Below are positions 53,112 to 64,000 of a stretch of 64,000 nucleotides of DNA, one piece after another; position 1 is the stretch's first letter, and every line of letters begins with the position of its first letter. This DNA is from an uncultured archaeon. Lineage in GTDB: Archaea > Halobacteriota > Methanosarcinia > Methanosarcinales > Methanoperedenaceae. Both the position numbers and the translations under genes were made by a program. The stretch is taken from NCBI GenBank assembly GCA_902384525.1, contig CABMCA010000047.1:1-64000 (forward strand), written 5' to 3'. A model generated the notes under the pieces. The model saw nothing but the letters and a program-made list of their open reading frames with translations. It was not told where the DNA came from and made no database searches.

Positions 53112-54437
53112 TCAATTAACTATTCTCTCACCAATATTGAACTTAGCTACTTCTACCTGCAATTCATTTGATAATCCTGCAAGTTCCTGGGCTGCATTCA
53201 CAAGCTGGTCCATTGAAGCTGCCTGCTGTTGTGCTGCAGCTGATGTTTCCTGTGTGCCTGCTGCCGATTCCTGGCTTATGGCTGACACTTCCTCTACAGT
53301 TGCGGTTACCTCTTCAACAGAAGAAGATTGTTCTTCAGTGGCAGCCGCTATTTCATGGATCATAGATGATACATCTACTGCCGCCTTGACTATATTGTTG
53401 ATCGCTGATACTGTGCCTTCCATTGTCTTTGTTCCTTCCTCAACGGTCTTTGTGCCTTTTTCCATTGTCAGTACAGCCTGCTTCGTACCCTCCTGGATCT
53501 CTTTTATCAATCCGGTAATCTGGTTCGCAGCACTACGGGATTCCTCTGCCAGTTTTCTGACTTCATCAGCCACTACCGCAAAACCCCTGCCATGTTCTCC
53601 TGCTCTTGCCGCTTCTATGGCTGCATTCAGTGCAAGGAGGTTTGTCTGGTCGGCTATATTTGTTATCACATCGATAATTTCACCTATCTTTTGTGATTTC
53701 CCATCAAGCTGTTTTATTACAGTTGCTGAATTATCCACTGTCGATCGGATTTCCGTCATGCTCTGTGCCACATCTCCCGACATCTTGCCTGCCTGCTGGG
53801 CAGTCGTGCTGGCTGTACTTGCGCTCTGTGCCGCTTTCTGCGAGTTCACCGAAACCTGCTGGATGCTTTCTGACATTTCCTTCATGGCGCGGCTAACCTC
53901 AACCATCCTGGATGACTGCTGGCCCACACCTGTTGCCATTTCACATGTTGTGTTTGATATCTGGTCTGAGGAAGCTTTTATCTGCTTGCTGGATGTAGAA
54001 AGTTCACGGGCCGTATTAGCTACTTTTGACGATACGTTCTGGACTTTACCTGCCAAATTCCTGAGGTTTGATGTCATTTTCCTGAAATATTCAGCCAATT
54101 GCCCGAGTTCATCTTTTGAGGAGACAAGTAATTCAGTTGTTAAATCTCCCTGTGATATCCTGTCAGCTGTATGGCTAAAATCTTTCAATGGTTTCATAAT
54201 TGAACGGGTCAATCCTATACACATGAGTATGGATGAGACTACTGCGAATAAAATACACAGGATGATGGCCTGTTCCGGGTCAATAAAAGCGCTTACACTT
54301 TTGCCATATAAACCCATAAAACCCACGATCAACATAAGAATATCAACCACAATGAAACCATAAGCGATTTTAATACCTATTTTGAACCTGTTAAGGGTCT
54401 GGTCATTAACTGAATCCATAATTTTCATTAATTCCAT
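53112..54437 (-). CDS. Methyl-accepting chemotaxis protein without sensor domain
   Basis: 441 residues. Two membrane helices (about 23-43 and 57-76) separated by only about a dozen residues, so there is no extracytoplasmic ligand domain. HAMP follows ([16 protein letters not shown]), then the signalling hairpin whose tip is [20 protein letters not shown]. Methylation-type Glu pairs occur ([14 protein letters not shown]). The C-terminus is [13 protein letters not shown] and lacks the SLEDLTK ending of three neighbours. It may sense through the membrane, its HAMP, or a partner such as the two-CW protein encoded just upstream in the same transcript. Confidence 0.93.
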
Positions 54438-54778: not shown

Positions 54779-54809
54779 TTTATAAACCCAATTGTGAAAA
54801 ATGTGTGAA
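54779..54809 (-). promoter_or_regulatory. Shared 31-bp promoter block, copy 3
   Basis: On the minus strand this reads TTCACACATTT, TTCACAATTGGG, TTTATAAA, with two TTCACA half-sites eleven bases apart and a TATA box. Length and spacing match the blocks at 60438 and 63635. The TATA box is about 24 bases before the ATG of the two-CW gene. Confidence 0.65.
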
Positions 54810-54813
54810 CTTG

Positions 54814-56127
54814 TCAATCTTTTTGTTTGAATAAAGCAACTTCATTTTTCAATTCATCCGACAATTCTGCTAATTCCCTGGCGATATCTGTGAACCTGCT
54901 AACAGATGCCGTCTGTTCATGGATTTGTGTATCTGCTTCCTCAGTAATCACTTTAAATTTTTTAGCCAGTATAGAAATGTCATCAACTGAGGATTTTACT
55001 TTTTCCATCGAAGTTGCCTCCATTTTTGCCATTTCAATTATTTCACTGAACATATTAGCAGCATTTTCAGATGCTTCAACTATATTATCTATTGAAGATA
55101 TAGTGGAGTCGATTGTTTCTGTACCTTCGGTAACGGTCTTTGTCCCAAGATCCATGTTATCAACAGCCTTTTTTGTTTCCTTATGTATCTCTCTTATCAG
55201 TTCTGTGATCTTATTTGCCGAATTCCTTGATTCTTCTGCAAGTTTCTTTACTTCATTTGCCACAACAGCAAACCCTTTTCCATGCTCCCCAGCGCGGGCT
55301 GCTTCAATTGCAGCGTTTAAGGCAAGCAGGTTTGTCTGGTCCGCAATTTTAGTTATTACTCCTACTATTTCGTCTATCTTCTCAGAATTACTATCAAGAC
55401 TCTTTATTACAAGGGCGGATTTATTTACTGAGTTCTGGATATCCTTTATTTTGTTCATCAGGTCATTTGATTTCTTTAGCAATTCCCTTGCTGTATTATT
55501 GGAATCTTTTGTAGCCTGCGCCGTCCTTTCCGATCCAACTGTGACCTGCTGCTTGATGATTGATATCTCATTTACGATCTCATTGATATTATCTATTTTT
55601 TTTGATTGCTGGCTTGATGCTTCTGCTATACCCTGCGTGTTATTTGATACATTGTCAATTGAAGATTTCAACTCCCGGCTTGATATAGAAAGCTCATGTG
55701 CTTTAGCTGCCATTTTTAAAGAGATATCCTGTACCTTTCCGGTTATATGTCTGAGTGTAGACGTCATTTTTATAAAGTATTCTGTAAGTAATCCTATCTC
55801 GTCACTGGATATAGACTTCATATCCGGTGTGAGGTCTCCTTCAGATATTCGATTAGCAGCGATCTCAAATTCATTTAATGGCTTCATAATGGAACGTGTC
55901 AATCCAGTGCAGATGAGTATAGATGACATGATTGTTAAAAAAGATAAAATTATGATTATCTCATCAGTGTCCATGAATGTAATAATTCTTTCATGATAAT
56001 AGCCAAAATACACCACAACTAACCACAATATATTAACTACAATGAAACTATATGCGATTCTCATTCCAATATTTAACCTATCAAGTGTTAACTTATTGAC
56101 CTTATCCATAATTTTCATCAAGCCCAT
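54814..56127 (-). CDS. Divergent methyl-accepting chemotaxis protein
   Basis: 437 residues, same layout as the receptor at 53112 (two helices near 25-45 and 58-76 with a short loop, HAMP, signalling coiled coil) but the most diverged of the five. The hairpin tip [20 protein letters not shown] is kept, and the flanks are altered ([14 protein letters not shown]). The C-terminus ends in EVALFKQKD. No ribosome site is visible and the start is 17 bases after the terminator-like hairpin of the upstream cheW, so expression may depend on readthrough. Confidence 0.9.
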
Positions 56128-56143
56128 AATTTGTGAAAAAATG

Positions 56144-56183
56144 AAAAAAAGCAGCTTTGCTATACGGTCACTGCTGCTGCTTT
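56144..56183 (-). terminator. Hairpin and T tract at the end of cheW (copy 1)
   Basis: Minus strand: AAAGCAGC (56176-56183) pairs with GCTGCTTT (56148-56155) around a 20-base loop that holds the cheW stop, followed by a run of T residues (56144-56150). It resembles an intrinsic terminator or attenuator before the downstream receptor gene. Confidence 0.45.
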
Positions 56184-56678
56184 TGTTGCTATATTGTTTA
56201 CATTGCGAAGTTCATTTGCACTGAGTATCTTATCAAGGTCAAGCAGGATCAGCAGCCTGTCTTCCATCTTACCCACGCCTCGTACATATTCCGTGCCGAT
56301 CTTATTGGCAATGACAGCGGGGGCCGGCTCAACACTGCTTTCAGGGAGGCGTATTACCTCACTCACTGAATCAACGATAAAACCCATCACAGTCTCGCCG
56401 ATATCCGCGACAATGATGCGTGTATTCTCATTATGTTCTTTGCTTTCCATGCCCATTATCACATTGAGGTTTATCACCACGATTATCCTGCCGCGAAGGT
56501 TGATAATTCCTTTAACATATCCTGATGCCTGCGGTATCTTTGTGATATTGGTCATGCGGATTATCTCCTGCACGTTCATGATCTCGACACCGAACTCTTC
56601 AGTGCCGATATTAAAAACGACAAGCTGTAACTCGTCGCCGGATTTTGCTTTTGCGTCCTGTGGTTGTATTTGCGCCAT
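56160..56678 (-). CDS. cheW: CheW adaptor (copy 1)
   Basis: 172 residues, two five-stranded SH3-like barrels that couple receptors to CheA ([16 protein letters not shown], then [14 protein letters not shown] and [17 protein letters not shown]). It differs from the second copy at only eight positions, one in the core and seven in the last twenty residues. AGGAGGAT ribosome site ten bases after the receptor stop, the two genes forming a receptor-CheW pair. Ends with TAG. Confidence 0.93.
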
Positions 56679-56687
56679 TGTATCCTC

Positions 56688-58154
56688 CTATTTTGTCAGG
56701 TCTTCAAGGCTTGAACCCGCAGAACTGCTTCCGACATCAGCTTTTTTATCCTTACTTGATATGGTGTCTGAAGTACTGTGTTCCTTCATTTTTTTCTGAC
56801 TTATTTCAGGTTTGTGTATTGCATTTTGTTGTGATATTACAGGTTCACCGATATTGAATTTGGCAACCTCGTCCTGCAATTCGTCAGATAATTTTGCAAG
56901 TTCCTGGGCTGCATTAACAAGCACATCCATTGAAGTTGTCTGCTGTTGCGCTGCCGCTGAGGTTTCCTGTGTACCTGCCGCTGATTCTTCACATATCGAT
57001 GATACATCTTCTACAGAAGCTGTTACCTCTTCAACGGAGGCGGATTGTTGCTCTGTGGCTGCTGCAATTTCATTAATCATTGTTGCCACGTCTGCTGCTG
57101 CCTTGACTATCTGGTTGATCGCTGATACTGTGCCTTCCATGATCTTTGTTCCGTCAAAAACGGTTTTTGTACCCTGTTCCATGGCCACAACAGCCTGATT
57201 TGTACCCTGCTGTATCTCTTTTATTAATCCGGTTATCTGGTTTGCAGCATTACGGGATTCCTCTGCGAGTTTTCTGACTTCATCAGCTACCACTGCAAAG
57301 CCTCTTCCATGCTCTCCTGCACGTGCAGCTTCTATGGCTGCGTTGAGGGCAAGAAGGTTTGTCTGGTCTGCAATATTTGTTATCACGCTAATGATCTCGC
57401 CTATTCGCTGTGATTTGCCGTCAAGCTGTTTTATTACAGTTGCTGAATTATCCACAGTTGATTGGATCTCAGTCATCTTATGAGCCACATCGCCTGACAT
57501 TTTACCAACCTGCGAAGCAGTCGTGCTGGCAGCAGTTGCGCCTTCGGCTGCTTTCTGTGAGCTCGTTGCGACTTGCTGGACGCTCTGTGATAGTTCCTTC
57601 ATGGCACGGCTGACTTCATCCATCTTTGATGCCTGCTGGCCTACTCCTGTGGCAATATCCTGTGTGGTGTTTGAGATCTGGTCAGTGGATGCTTTCATTT
57701 CTTCACTTGATCCTGAAAGTTCCTGGGCTGTACTGGCTACTTTTAATGAGACATTCTGGACTTTGCCAGTTAAAGTTCGCAGATTCAAAGTCATTCTCTT
57801 GAAATATTCGGCAAGTTTTCCGAGTTCGTCCTTTGAGGAGACATTTACTTCCACTGTTAAATCCCCCTCTGCGATCCTGTCAGCGGCATTTATAAATTCA
57901 TTTAACGGTTTCATTATAGAACGGGTCAGCCCCATACACATGAGTATGGATGAAAATATGATGAAAATGATACAAAGTGTGATAGCCAGTTTCGGATCAA
58001 TAAAAACGCTTACGCTCTCCTCATATAAACCTACAAATCCTATAATTAACATCAATAAATCAACCACAACGAAGCTGTAAATGATTTTCGAACTAATATT
58101 GAATTTATCAATGGTCAGTTCATTTGCACCATCGATTATTTTTATTAATTTCAT
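56688..58154 (-). CDS. Methyl-accepting chemotaxis protein with SLEDLTK tail
   Basis: 488 residues. Two helices (about 25-43 and 57-76) with a short loop, HAMP, and signalling domain (tip [20 protein letters not shown]). A linker of about 50 residues with low complexity ends in SSLEDLTK, the same ending as in two other receptors here. Ten bases later is cheW. The protein is very similar to the receptor at 53112, pointing to recent duplication. Start has GGAGAG upstream. Confidence 0.92.
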
Positions 58155-58193
58155 TTTTTCTCTCCATCTAATATTGTTAAAGTATCAATACTC

Positions 58194-60386
58194 CTATTTT
58201 GTCAGGTCTTGAAGGCTTGAATCCTTCAGACTGCTTCCGACTTCAGTCTTATGTTCAATTGTTTTATGTTCAGCAGTTTTTCGTTCATGGGCAGGTTTGT
58301 ACTCGACCTTTGCAGGTTCATACGCGTGTTTTTGTTCTTTTGCAGATGTATCAATTTTGAATTTGGCAACCTCGGCCTGCAATTCATTTGATAATTTTGC
58401 CATTTCCTGGGCTGCATTAACAAGCTGGTCCATTGTAGCCGACTGTTCTTCTGCGGACGCTGATGTCTCCTGTGTGCCTGCTGCTGATTCCTGGCTTATG
58501 GCAGATACATCCTCAACAGATGATGTTACTTCTTGAACCGAGGCAGACTGCTCCTGTGCTGCTGCTGCTATTTCCTGTACCATTGTGGCAACTTCTGCCG
58601 CTGCTTTTACGATCTCGTCTATGGCATTCACGGTATCTGCTATATTCTTTGTGCCTTCACCTACTGTCTTTGTTCCCTGTTCCATGGTTGTTACAGCCTG
58701 TTTTGTTCCCTGTTGTATATCTTTGATCAATCCCGTGATCTGGTTGGCAGCACCACGGGATTCTTCAGCGAGTTTCCGTACTTCATCAGCAACTACCGCA
58801 AAGCTCCGTCCGTGTTCTCCTGCTCGTGCAGCTTCTATTGCAGCGTTTAAGGCAAGGAGGTTGGTCTGGTCTGCAATATTGGTGATAACACTGATTATTT
58901 CGCCTATCTGCTGCGATTTACCATCGAGCTGTTTTATAGCAGTTGCTGAACCATCTACAGTTGACTGGATTTCGGACATCTTTTTGGCCACATCTTCTGA
59001 CAACCTGCCCACTTTCTGGGCAGTTGTGCTGGCTGCGCCTGCAACTTCAGATGCTTTCTGGGAGTTGATTGCAACCTGCTGGACGCTTTCTGACATCTCC
59101 TTCATAGCACGGCTTATCTCAGCCATCTTTGTCGCCTGCGAGCTTACACCTGTTGCAATGTCCTGTGTGGTGTTTGATATCTGGTCAGTGGATGCTTTCA
59201 TCTCTTCACTTGATGCTGAAAGTTCATGAGCGGTAGAGGCTACTTTCAATGCAGAGCTTTGCACTTTTCCAATAACTGATCTCAGGTTTTCGGTCATAGC
59301 AGCGAGGGCACCGAATAACTGCCCGATCTCATCATTTGACAACTTTTTCACCTTAACTGTCAGGTCGCCTGCTGCAATTTTATTGGAGATGCGAAGCATT
59401 CTGCCGATTGGTCTGGTGAGATATCTTGAAAACCATATTCCAATAATCGACCCCAATACTGAAAAAATTAAGATTACTATTATCAGGCCATTCCTTATTG
59501 CATAAACCGGATCGCTGAAATCTTCAATATAACTTCCTGAAGCTATTATCCAATCCCTGGGCTGATAGTAAGTATATGCAACAACTTTATCCCTCCCTTC
59601 CCATGGATACTGGATATAGCCTTCTTTAGTTTCAGTTATTTTCTTAATGAAATCATACTCATAGAGATTCTCTCCTTCCCTGTCCGGATGTATTATCAGG
59701 TTGCCTTTTGAATCAATAACATAAAGATAACCTGTTTTTCCCACGACTATGCTTTTCATCTTCTCTTTGATTTGATTTACAAATGGATCCTCAGGAATAC
59801 CAACATACAAAATACCGATTATCTTCCCCGATCCATCCTTAATAGGTTCGTAAGCTGTCAGATACCATGCATTAACCACCCATGCCCTGCCGTAATAGGT
59901 CTCGCCGCGCATTATAACAGCATCATACACTGGTTTTGAAACTGTTGTTCCTATCGCACGCGAACCATCGGTATTGATCACATTTGTGGAAATCCGGACC
60001 GCTTCCTCCCCTATCACCTGGAATACCGTTGCTGTACCCCCTACCATATTTTTAACAGAGTCTACTATCTCAAAGTTCCCATTCAGTACATAATTGTCGC
60101 CCAGTTGCATCTTGCCATTTACGATACTGGGTTTTCCCCTGGAATAGAATTGGGCTTTTGCAACTCCGAGTGAATTGTTGACATTATTCTGTGCAAGAGA
60201 AAATGTCATATCTACAGTATCTTTTTCCAGACTTACCTGTTCTTCTAATTTATTCTGTATCTCTGTATTTAATGAGCTTTGTGTTTCATTATAGGCATAT
60301 AAACCTATGATCGTCACTGGTATTATCGAGAGGATTAATGCAAAAATTATAATTTTATATTTTATGCTGATGTCTTTGATTTCCAT
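58194..60386 (-). CDS. Methyl-accepting chemotaxis protein with Cache sensor
   Basis: About 730 residues from ATG at 60386; TTG six codons upstream is the only longer option. TM1 near 10-30, a Cache_3/Cache_2-type extracytoplasmic domain (about 35-285: [56 protein letters not shown]), TM2 near 300-320, HAMP, and signalling domain. It should bind a small ligand such as an organic acid or amino acid in the Cache pocket. The tail is His/Lys-rich and ends in SSLQDLTK. First gene of the transcript with the 488-residue receptor and cheW. Confidence 0.92.
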
Positions 60387-60437
60387 AATATTCGCTCGTT
60401 CCAAAAATTTTCAGTTATGACAAAATAAATTTACCGA

Positions 60438-60468
60438 TTTATAAATGGATTTGTGAAAAATGTGTGAA
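60438..60468 (-). promoter_or_regulatory. Shared 31-bp promoter block, copy 2
   Basis: Minus strand: TTCACACATTT, TTCACAAATCCA, TTTATAAA. It differs from copy 1 (63635) at three positions, with identical length and spacing. TATA box lies about 50 bases before the receptor ATG, giving a short leader. Confidence 0.65.
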
Positions 60469-60470
60469 CT

Positions 60471-60512
60471 GAAAAAAGAAAGAAAAGCAGCTTCCTTATG
60501 TGGTAGCTGCTT
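60471..60512 (-). terminator. Hairpin and T-rich tract at the end of cheW (copy 2)
   Basis: Minus strand: AAGCAGCT (60505-60512) pairs perfectly with AGCTGCTT (60485-60492) around a 12-base loop containing the stop codon, followed by a T-rich tract ending at 60471. It immediately precedes promoter copy 2, so the two transcription units are cleanly separated. Confidence 0.55.
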
Positions 60513-61014
60513 CAGCTTCGGTGGCTATGTTGCTTACGTTGTGAAGTTCTTTGGCGCTGAGTATTTTATCAAGATCAAGAAGAATAAGCAGCCTGTCTTC
60601 CATCTTACCCACGCCACGCACATATTCCGTGCCTATTTTATTGGCAATGACAGCAGGCGCAGGCTCAACACTGTTTTCAGGGAGGCGTATTACCTCACTC
60701 ACTGAATCAACGATAAAACCCATCACGGTCTCGCCGATATCCGCGACAATGATGCGTGTATTCTCATTATGTTCTTTGCTTTCCATGCCCATTATCACAT
60801 TGAGGTTGATTACTACAATTATCCTGCCGCGAAGGTTGATAATTCCTTTCACATATCCTGATGCCTGCGGTATCTTTGTGATATTGGTCATGCGGATGAT
60901 CTCCTGCACGTTCATGATCTCGACACCGAACTCTTCGGTGCCGATATTAAAAACGACAAGCTGTAGCTCGTCGCCGGATTTTGCTTTTGCGTCCTGTGGT
61001 TGTATTTGCGCCAT
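60496..61014 (-). CDS. cheW: CheW adaptor (copy 2)
   Basis: 172 residues, nearly identical to the copy at 56160: one core change (Asn for Ser in LPENSVEP) and seven changes in the last twenty residues. Ribosome site and spacing after the receptor stop are also the same. Either a very recent duplication or gene conversion. It forms a pair with the 843-residue receptor. Confidence 0.93.
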   Translation of the reverse strand: MAQIQPQDAKAKSGDELQLVVFNIGTEEFGVEIMNVQEIIRMTNITKIPQASGYVKGIINLRGRIIVVINLNVIMGMESKEHNENTRIIVADIGETVMGFIVDSVSEVIRLPENSVEPAPAVIANKIGTEYVRGVGKMEDRLLILLDLDKILSAKELHNVSNIATEAEAATT

Positions 61015-61023
61015 TGTATCCTC

Positions 61024-63555
61024 CTATTTTGTCAGGTCTTCAAGGCTTTCTTCGGGAGGACTGTTCATGGCTTCAACTTCTTCTTTTTCCTTTTTTGTTG
61101 TCCTAACCTTTGAAGCTTGCTTGTTTTCTTTTGTTTTTTCATGAACAACCGCAGGTTTGGATTGCACTTCTTTCGCAGATTTGGATTGCGTTTCTTTCGC
61201 AGGTTTGGATTGCACTTCTTTTGCAGCTTTGTTATCAGGAACAGGTTTATGTTCTATTTTGGCGGGTTCCTGTTTAATAGGAGTTGTTACAACTTCACCG
61301 AGATTGAACTTGCCCACTTCAGCCTGCAATTCATTTGATAGTTTTGCAAGTTCCTGGGCTGCATTAACAAGCACATCCATTGATGCTGACTGCTCTTCTG
61401 CGGCTGCGGATGTTTCCTCTGTGCCTGCCGCTGATTCTTCGCTTATGGCTGATACATCCTCTACTGAAGAGGTTACTTCTTCGATAGAGGCGGACTGTTC
61501 TTCTGCGGCCGCAGCTATTTCCTGCACCATTGTAGCCACTTCTCCGGCAGCTTTAACTATCTTATTGATGGCGCCAACGGTTTCCTCAATAGTCTTTGCT
61601 CCTTCGCCAACGGTCTTTGTGCCCTGTTCCATTGATGTCACAGCCTGTTTTGTACCCTGCTGTATCTCTTTTATTAATCCGGTGATCTTGTTAGCCGCGC
61701 CTCTTGATTCTTCGGCAAGTTTCCTGACCTCGTCCGCAACTACCGCAAAGCCCCTGCCATGTTCTCCTGCCCTGGCCGCTTCTATGGCTGCGTTTAAGGC
61801 GAGGAGGTTTGTCTGGTCTGCGATATTGGTTATCACACCAATAATCTCTCCTATCTCCTGTGATTTGCCGTCAAGCTGTTTTATCACTGTTGCTGAATTA
61901 TCCACAGTTGACTGGATTTCAGACATCTTATTTGCAACATCATTTGACATCTTGCCCACTTGCTGGGCTGTCGCGCTGGCAGATGTCGCACCCTCCGCAG
62001 CTTTCTGTGAGTTCGTGGCGACCTCCTGTATGCTTTCTGACATCTCCCTCATTGCACGGCTTACTTCAGCCATCTTGGAGGACTGCGAGCTTACGCCTGT
62101 GGCAATATCCTGTGTTGTGCTGGTAATCTGGTCTGTGGAAGCTTTCATTTGCTCACTTGTCGCTGAAAGTTCCTGTGCAGTAGTGGCTACTCTTTCTGCG
62201 CTTTGCTTCATTGATAATATCAGTTGCTGCAAGCTTTTTTGCAGGTTATTTATCCCGCTTGTGATCTTTCCGAAATCACCTTTACCTTCCACCTGGACAT
62301 GCTTTGTCAGGTCGCCATGGGACATCGAATCCAGTACTTCATTAGTATCTCCAATAACTAACCTGAGGTCTGCCTGCATATTATTGATTGAAGTGGTTAT
62401 TTTGTTGAAATCTCCTTTTGCATCCATCTGGACATGCTTTGAGAGGTCTCCTTCTGATATCGCCCCCATCACATTACTAACATCTCCTATAACGTTATTC
62501 AGGTCATTTGCCATGTTCTGGAATGTGCCGGAAAGTGTGCCAATTTCATCCCTGGACTTATTCTGCATATTGACATTCAGCTTGCCGGATGCAATATCTT
62601 TCGCCCCGAGGACAACCTCATCCACAGGTTTTGTAATGGCGCGGGAAATATATATCCCGATTCCAAGACCTAATACTATAGCTATTATGGAAAGCACTAT
62701 GATGGTGGTCTTGGCGGTTGAATTCGTACTGGCTATTCCGGCAAGCGCTGCAGCCTGGTCTGCATCGGCATCTGTTTCGAATTCAGCGATTATAGGCTCT
62801 ATTGCATGTACGTAATTTGTGAATTCTGTTGTTTTGGATGCGATCTTATTATCTATATCCACAATTTTATCAAAAGCTGCCGTATAAACAAGGAGCTTGG
62901 CATTGATATCGATCTTTACATCCTGGGGCAGCTTGCTGGCCGCCAGGTGGTTCATAAGGATCTTTTCATTATCATGCAATTTTTTTTGATAGGCTACATC
63001 CTGCCTCATTATGTAATCCTTTTCATTCCTCCTCAATGTCAGCATATCTGCCATTAACTGGTCATCGTTCTGTTCCGTGATATCTGCTTCAACAGCTTGC
63101 ACCGCACTCCTCATTTCAAACTGCAGTCCCAGGGTTTCATTAAGGCCTTTTGTCTTATAGAGTTCAGCAGTCTCAAGGAATGCTTTTTCATATCCTTCGA
63201 TATCAGTTATCACTTTTACTGACATGTCCTTTCTTTCCTGGGGGATATCAAGCGCCTGCATCTCAGTTGCTTCTTGCTTTACGTTCGCCACCGAAGCTTT
63301 TACTTTATCGATATATGAGAGATCCTTGCGTGCAAAAAAGTCTTTCTCAGAACGTCTTGCTTCCAGCATGCTTACATCCATAGCAAGAGCTTTTTCTTTA
63401 CTTGTAATCGCATTATCGATCACTTTATTTGTTTCCTGGTTTATTGTGCCAAGGGTAGTTATGCTTACAACCGCCAATATTATAAGCAGGATGCTGACAA
63501 GCCCGAATCCGCCCAGCAGCTTCTTGCTTAAAGACATATCTTTTATACTTACCAT
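61024..63555 (-). CDS. Methyl-accepting chemotaxis protein with HBM sensor
   Basis: 843 residues. TM1 near 12-33; a helical bimodular (HBM) sensor of about 245 residues with the twin signatures [13 protein letters not shown] and [15 protein letters not shown]2 near 283-303; three HAMP-like units ([52 protein letters not shown]); signalling domain with the usual tip. HBM domains in bacteria sense organic acids and related compounds. The linker has an eight-residue tandem repeat (KEVQSKPA-like) and ends in SLEDLTK. Start has GGAGG. First gene of its transcript. Confidence 0.93.
61151..61222. repeat. Three 24-bp tandem repeats in a receptor linker
   Basis: Three consecutive 24-base units (61151-61174, 61175-61198, 61199-61222) differing by a few bases, encoding three eight-residue units ([24 protein letters not shown]) in the unstructured linker before the C-terminal SLEDLTK. 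In-frame slippage is the likely origin. Confidence 0.85.
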
Positions 63556-63634
63556 TTTTCCTCCATTGATTATGATTCAATCTGAGGGTGCGACCCCTCA
63601 GATTGGTACTGAATATCAAAGAGAAAGCCACCAG

Positions 63635-63665
63635 TTTATAAACGGATTTGTGAATATTGTGTGAA
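63635..63665 (-). promoter_or_regulatory. Shared 31-bp promoter block, copy 1
   Basis: Minus strand: TTCACACAATA, TTCACAAATCCG, TTTATAAA. Two TTCACA half-sites are eleven bases apart (one helical turn) and the second abuts the TATA box, in the position where TFB or an activator would bind. It lies about 80 bases before the HBM receptor start. Confidence 0.65.
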
Positions 63666-63718: not shown

Positions 63719-63723
63719 GTTCT

Positions 63724-64000
63724 CATTTCCTTTTATTTGGCCTGAATCCTTCAAGGAAACGTGGAATTTCTGTAGCGCTGCTTTTCTCCACAAATTTAGG
63801 CAGATCGTTCAATGAGGGTTTTTCCATGTGATGATCAAATCCGGATTCCTCTTTTTGAATATTAAGGTCAACTACAGGGTCGCTAACAACGATTTTCCTG
63901 ACAGCTGGAGTTACTTTGTCAGGGGTTTTTGATCCTTCAATATTTTTATCCCTGTTGGTTTTCCCTTTTGTCTTACCGTCAGTATAATAGGAATCAGGCA
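63724..64000 (-). CDS. Partial hydrophilic protein, C-terminal end
   Basis: A frame open from the window edge to a TGA at 63724, at least 91 codons. It is polar and low in hydrophobics with KTKGKTNRDKN, VRKIVVSDPVVDLNI and a last part SLNDLPKFVEKSS then EIPRFLEGFRPNKRK, suggesting a disordered region with a short C-terminal helix. I cannot name it. Its position before the receptor block makes a chemotaxis link possible, and the SLNDL stretch recalls the SLEDL ending of the receptors, but this may be chance. Confidence 0.6.

Follow-up and report, generated by a model that had tools for sequence, protein, structure and literature searches.

A tandem TTCACAC promoter block predicted to mark a motility and chemotaxis regulon in Methanoperedenaceae, with a candidate ribbon-helix-helix-like regulator

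The 64,000-nucleotide stretch analysed here (the window) comes from contig C47 in the 2.92-Mb draft genome (G000) of a Ca. Methanoperedens (ANME-2d). It carries three units of chemoreceptor and chemotaxis genes on the minus strand, each of which stands behind a 31-bp block (Table 1). Read 5' to 3', the three blocks share the form TTCACAC-N4-TTCACA-N6-TTTATAAA, that is a direct repeat followed by a TATA box, and differ from one another at 3-5 positions. The conserved half-site comprises 7 bp, TTCACAC, the final base of the second copy being A or C. A previous sequence-only reading of this DNA had proposed three blocks of equal length and equal spacing in front of a two-CW/receptor unit, a Cache receptor/receptor/cheW unit and a receptor/cheW unit; all three occur exactly where it placed them, on the minus strand, and domain matches bear out the downstream units. 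The same reading described the direct repeat as flush against TATA: the repeat does adjoin the TATA box but is separated from it by 6 bp, which correspond to the position of the transcription factor B (TFB) recognition element (BRE).

In the window, the 31-bp pattern with up to 3 mismatches has 3 matches versus 0.02 (standard deviation 0.14) in shuffled sequence, while the half-site pair taken without the TATA box matches exactly only at the three blocks and looser matches to that pair are no more frequent than chance predicts. Start codons in the window lie 24-80 bp past the TATA box, a workable distance for an archaeal BRE/TATA promoter. For the two-CW gene, the ATG occurs 23 bases past the end of the TATA box. 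The TATA centre has been placed about 26/27 bp upstream of the transcription start (PMC5512572) and, because the distance from TATA to start codon is so short, the two-CW transcript is probably leaderless. The last receptor gene ahead of block 1 is not itself preceded by a good block in G000; its orthologue in genome G004 has one with 2 mismatches (L105 2864-2892).

Table 1. Blocks and genes at the chemoreceptor locus (window positions, unless preceded by C47)
Feature	Position	Strand	Evidence and remarks
Block 1	54809-54779	-	Reads TTCACACATTTTTCACAATTGGGTTTATAAA; exact pattern match; half-sites TTCACAC 54803-54809 and TTCACAA 54792-54798; 6-bp BRE-position spacer 54787-54792; TATA box TTTATAAA 54779-54786
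Two-CW domain protein, 72 aa	54537-54755	-	NCBIfam NF045718 (two_CW_domain), 5e-23
HAMP-MCP chemoreceptor, second gene of two-CW unit	53112-54437	-	PF00015, 5e-54
Block 2	60468-60438	-	Reads TTCACACATTTTTCACAAATCCATTTATAAA; half-sites 60462-60468 and 60451-60457; TATA box 60438-60445
Cache chemoreceptor behind block 2	58194-60386	-	PF17201 (5e-78) and PF00015; in-frame TTG upstream at 60404
HAMP-MCP chemoreceptor, Cache-receptor unit	56688-58154	-	Domain match
CheW, Cache-receptor unit	56160-56678	-	PF01584, 2e-39
HAMP-MCP chemoreceptor, last gene ahead of block 1	54814-56127	-	Domain match
Block 3	63665-63635	-	Reads TTCACACAATATTCACAAATCCGTTTATAAA; half-sites 63659-63665 and 63648-63654; TATA box 63635-63642
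HAMP-rich chemoreceptor behind block 3	61024-63555	-	Helical sensor, HAMP and MCP domains (domain matches)
CheW behind HAMP-rich chemoreceptor	60496-61014	-	Near-identical to CheW 56160-56678
Fourth unit, adjoining window end	63723-64000 in window	-	157-aa open reading frame, C47:63723-64196
KaiC-like gene of fourth unit	C47:64171-64926		PF06745, 2e-45
Block of fourth unit	C47:64971-65001		Just beyond window

The block is not restricted to this locus. The whole G000 genome contains 4 exact matches and, with up to 3 mismatches, 18 blocks versus 1 for the reversed pattern, which served as control for all genome and family counts. A refined pattern (TTCACACNNNTTTCACANNNNNNTTTATA, at most 1 mismatch) retrieved 11 blocks in G000 where ~0.001 per genome are expected, and 200 blocks in 25 of the 34 Methanoperedenaceae genomes of our family set, with 0 for the control throughout the family; it was found in none of the 204 other genomes of the class. 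Archaeal promoters often contain TTTATA and T-rich spacers, so that a chance likeness of ordinary AT-rich BRE/TATA promoters might be considered, but these counts, the empty control and the rigid spacing described below leave that explanation a negligible likelihood and it was rejected.

In G000, the targets include the archaellum operon (three archaellins, F/G-like genes, arlH, arlI and arlJ), which is followed on the same strand by cheY, cheY, cheB, cheA, cheR, cheC and cheD. Blocks also stand ahead of a lone archaellin gene, of a unit in which a sensor kinase is joined by two response-regulator genes and a KaiC-like ATPase, of a further two-CW gene, and of the genes for RHH346 (346 aa, see below), for a receiver-PadR protein and for small membrane proteins. 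A search of the whole genome with the motif placed the block ahead of motility, chemotaxis and signalling genes rather than random ones, contrary to the outcome that the sequence-only reading had named as refuting it. The idea that one regulator controls the chemoreceptor region is well supported as regards a single regulator acting through a direct repeat next to TATA; its local scope did not hold, since the regulon spans the genome and the family and includes the archaellum operon. Very probably, the block marks the promoters of a motility and chemotaxis regulon of the Methanoperedenaceae. In contig C25 of genome G007 (L103 13996-15640), three tandem archaellin genes have one block each. In relatives with several archaellin units, individual archaellins can, as judged from such arrangements, be separately promoted.

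The geometry of the block was assessed over 1.43 Mb of loci that had been fetched without use of the motif. Pairs of TTCACA occur 58 times with 5 bases between them, and no other distance from 0 to 15 was seen more than 6 times. Of the second half-sites followed by TTTATA, 59 stand 6 bp away from it and 1 at another distance. The resulting period of 11 bp, rigid like the 6-bp gap to TATA, corresponds to about one helical turn, which puts both half-sites on the same face of the DNA. Arrays of at least three half-sites on this period, with up to four repeats, were detected 18 times versus 0 in the control; several genomes retain such arrays ahead of one small membrane-protein gene, and G005 has one before arlB. 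Computed over 139 distinct sites, the information content is ~2 bits per position in the half-sites, a value partly imposed by the search, and 0.08 bit at spacer position 8 and ~0.1 bit in the flanks, where the search imposes nothing.

Relatives therefore keep the half-sites and lose the flanks and the spacer base, which is the outcome that the sequence-only reading had linked to selection. The receptors and cheW genes in the window are paralogues, with two CheW near-identical, and the three blocks might be alike through a recent joint duplication of promoter and gene. Such an origin is very improbable, and local copying was rejected, because the flanks are unrelated; in addition, the genes behind the blocks range from archaellins to KaiC-like and unrelated proteins, and 25 genomes have retained the pattern. 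The pattern is that of selection on a predicted tandem binding site and not of recent copying.

The placement of the sites resembles that of EarA, an activator of the archaellum (fla/arl) promoter in Methanococcus maripaludis and Thermococcales, for which activation has been proposed to proceed through aid to TFB at a weak BRE (PMC5512572, PMC10665913). As for EarA, whose one to four short boxes lie directly upstream of BRE/TATA, the repeats of the block stand directly upstream of these elements and the archaellum operon (arlB) is among the predicted targets. The two differ in sequence, TTCACAC as opposed to TACATA or A(C/G)(C/G)TACA(T/C), and no TACATA-like box is found in the block. They also differ in breadth: the block reaches chemoreceptors and signalling genes, whereas the Thermococcales EarA motif is reported to be absent upstream of other arl genes. 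The architecture is known from EarA; what is new, as far as the literature searched shows, is the sequence, the regulon's breadth and the regulator candidate. To our knowledge, the regulators of archaeal motility described so far are few, and most of what is known of EarA concerns a single operon.

The BRE of the blocks, about ACTCTG, is not purine-rich. We infer that a regulator would bind the TTCACAC repeats side by side on one face of the helix, touch TFB and the TATA-binding protein and recruit them to this BRE, thereby activating transcription. A single factor could in this way co-express the archaellum, receptors, CheW, KaiC-like ATPases, sensor proteins and its own partner genes. The block protein might instead be a repressor that covers the BRE and keeps motility genes off unless needed, which would count against activation; so near to BRE/TATA, a protein on the second half-site could obstruct TFB, and many ribbon-helix-helix (RHH) proteins, the class considered below, repress. 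We regard repression as unlikely, given that the sites lie upstream of BRE/TATA and not over or past them, that extra repeats reach further upstream, and that such placement is as in known archaeal activators (PMC5512572).

For the protein that would bind the repeats, the distribution of genes across the family points to RHH222 (222 aa). This protein occurs in 23 of the 25 block-bearing genomes and in 0 of the 9 block-free ones; the two block-bearing genomes that lack it are incomplete assemblies (84% and 63%). Its 346-aa relative RHH346 is found in 21/25 versus 0/9 genomes and CheA in 24/25 versus 0/9. The genes for RHH222 and for RR210, a stand-alone receiver, lie directly upstream of the archaellum-che cluster in block-rich genomes. 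In two genomes, G008 (whose archaellum is of the other type, see below) and G033, RHH222, RR210, cheY and cheB are continuous with no archaellum genes between them, and a block lies between this operon and a divergent MCP-cheW unit. Based on this arrangement and on the co-occurrence, the block accompanies chemotaxis and RHH222/RR210 and not the archaellum in itself. A block with at most 3 mismatches lies 43-62 bp ahead of each RHH346 orthologue that was examined. RHH346 could accordingly amplify the response, and RR210 might pass the chemosensory state to RHH222, the latter being a guess from gene neighbourhood. Relatives of RHH346 of about 480-515 aa were also observed, alternating with cytochrome-like and ferredoxin-like genes (L190, G000 C123:4437-11111), and these may represent a wider regulator family in Methanosarcinales.

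The N-terminus of the RHH222/RHH346 family, ~40 residues (RKNISL...GNFSAAIREIIDL), resembles a strand-helix-helix. Pfam RHH_1 (PF01402) matches were obtained for 11 of 38 family N-termini, all of them sub-threshold (E up to 1, best 1e-3), so that no family member lies above the Pfam cut-off. A profile-profile comparison gave a 68% match over 36 columns to four manually entered RHH reference sequences. Structure models display helical stretches at 10-22 and 27-45 after an RKNVSI stretch, with low predicted local distance difference test (pLDDT) scores and no strand in the monomer model. A search of PDB sequences with the family N-terminal profile returned chance matches only, and inspection of the promoters of other RHH-family paralogues revealed no clear pattern of TTCACA boxes.

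Several points weigh against RHH222 as the binder. RHH222 itself has no RHH_1 match, and fold searches with the RHH346 and RHH222 models, which are of low confidence at the N-terminus, gave nothing significant. The putative DNA-reading strand RKNIS is common to paralogues in block-free genomes and does not account for specificity. Related genomes are not independent witnesses of co-occurrence, and the profile of RHH222 is shared by other che-linked genes. RHH222 is the best candidate regulator, with a weak domain assignment, and because the RKNIS stretch is shared with paralogues of block-free genomes its candidacy is plausible, not proven. Taken as a whole, a regulon promoter with tandem activator sites and RHH222 as candidate binder is moderately probable.

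Eight of the nine block-free genomes retain archaellins. Where their archaellin promoters were inspected (L112-L116, L119), they bear a different conserved element, around GTTAAGAATTTACAACCANTAACTATATATA, and a gene for a 120-aa protein sits upstream of the archaellin genes in these loci of the other archaellum type, type B (L113 7653-8015, L114 6527-6889, L115 9061-9423). This protein has no Pfam or NCBIfam match above cut-off and may be an EarA-like regulator. Two archaellum promoter codes are thereby seen within one genus, split by the presence of chemotaxis.

A serious, if less probable, possibility is that the regulon is as described and that its binder is a different protein, a winged-helix EarA-type or PadR-type factor encoded elsewhere, with RHH222 and RHH346 merely co-regulated. 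Short direct repeats upstream of an archaellum BRE/TATA are precisely the EarA architecture (PMC5512572, PMC10665913), and the receiver-PadR gene has its own block. The receiver-PadR protein was nevertheless set aside, as its distribution is mismatched (full-length in only 5/25 block-bearing genomes), and the 120-aa protein was ruled out for the block since no block-rich genome contains it.

Two RHH systems invite comparison with RHH222 as the preferred candidate. The omega/ParB repressor of plasmid pSM19035 is an RHH protein that recognises, as one dimer, a non-palindromic direct repeat of 7 bp, WATCACW (PMC9499535). In omega as in the block, the repeats measure 7 bp and have TCAC at their core, a likeness that we take as a lead only; the omega heptads are contiguous with a 7-bp period, as opposed to 11 bp in the block, and omega serves plasmid partition and repression. 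CdrS, a small haloarchaeal RHH regulator of cell division genes (PMC7439475, PMC8406309), is an archaeal RHH transcription regulator, the role proposed for RHH222, and differs in its small size and its cell-division targets. With regard to repeat geometry, the same values as in the block, 7-bp direct repeats, a 4-bp spacer and an 11-bp period, can be compared with another system.

That system is the PhoB/OmpR boxes, located beside promoters and bound by bacterial winged-helix response regulators; they differ from the block in that no such protein is tied to the TTCACAC motif.

An RHH protein and a stand-alone chemotaxis receiver might together form an undescribed archaeal two-part switch that drives an archaellum-plus-chemotaxis regulon through TTCACAC repeats at the BRE, relatives without this chemotaxis system using the other archaellum promoter code and regulator. 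We put this forward tentatively and consider it rather doubtful in its full form. In the open literature searched, no paper joining Methanoperedens, archaella and chemotaxis was found. For the ANME-2d methane oxidisers, whose cultivation is difficult, a promoter code, its targets and a candidate regulator are thereby defined from sequence; the regulon unites archaella with chemotaxis, and its gene list is directly testable against expression data.

Other features were noted in passing. The near-identical CheW pair of the window suggests a recent duplication or gene conversion inside the receptor cluster. In G000 (C106:14755-14807) and in the orthologues at L298, L301, L306, L309 and L310, the promoter of a small membrane-protein gene regularly contains three or four half-sites, above most other targets. 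Finally, conserved TTCACA arrays without a TATA box, followed by inverted TGTGAA, were detected at C101:27047-27088 and C101:26831-26861 (G000, L052) and in the relatives L299, L300 and L307. Past them lie small open reading frames and then a gene for a 330-aa membrane protein, and these TATA-less sites may be something other than the block promoter.

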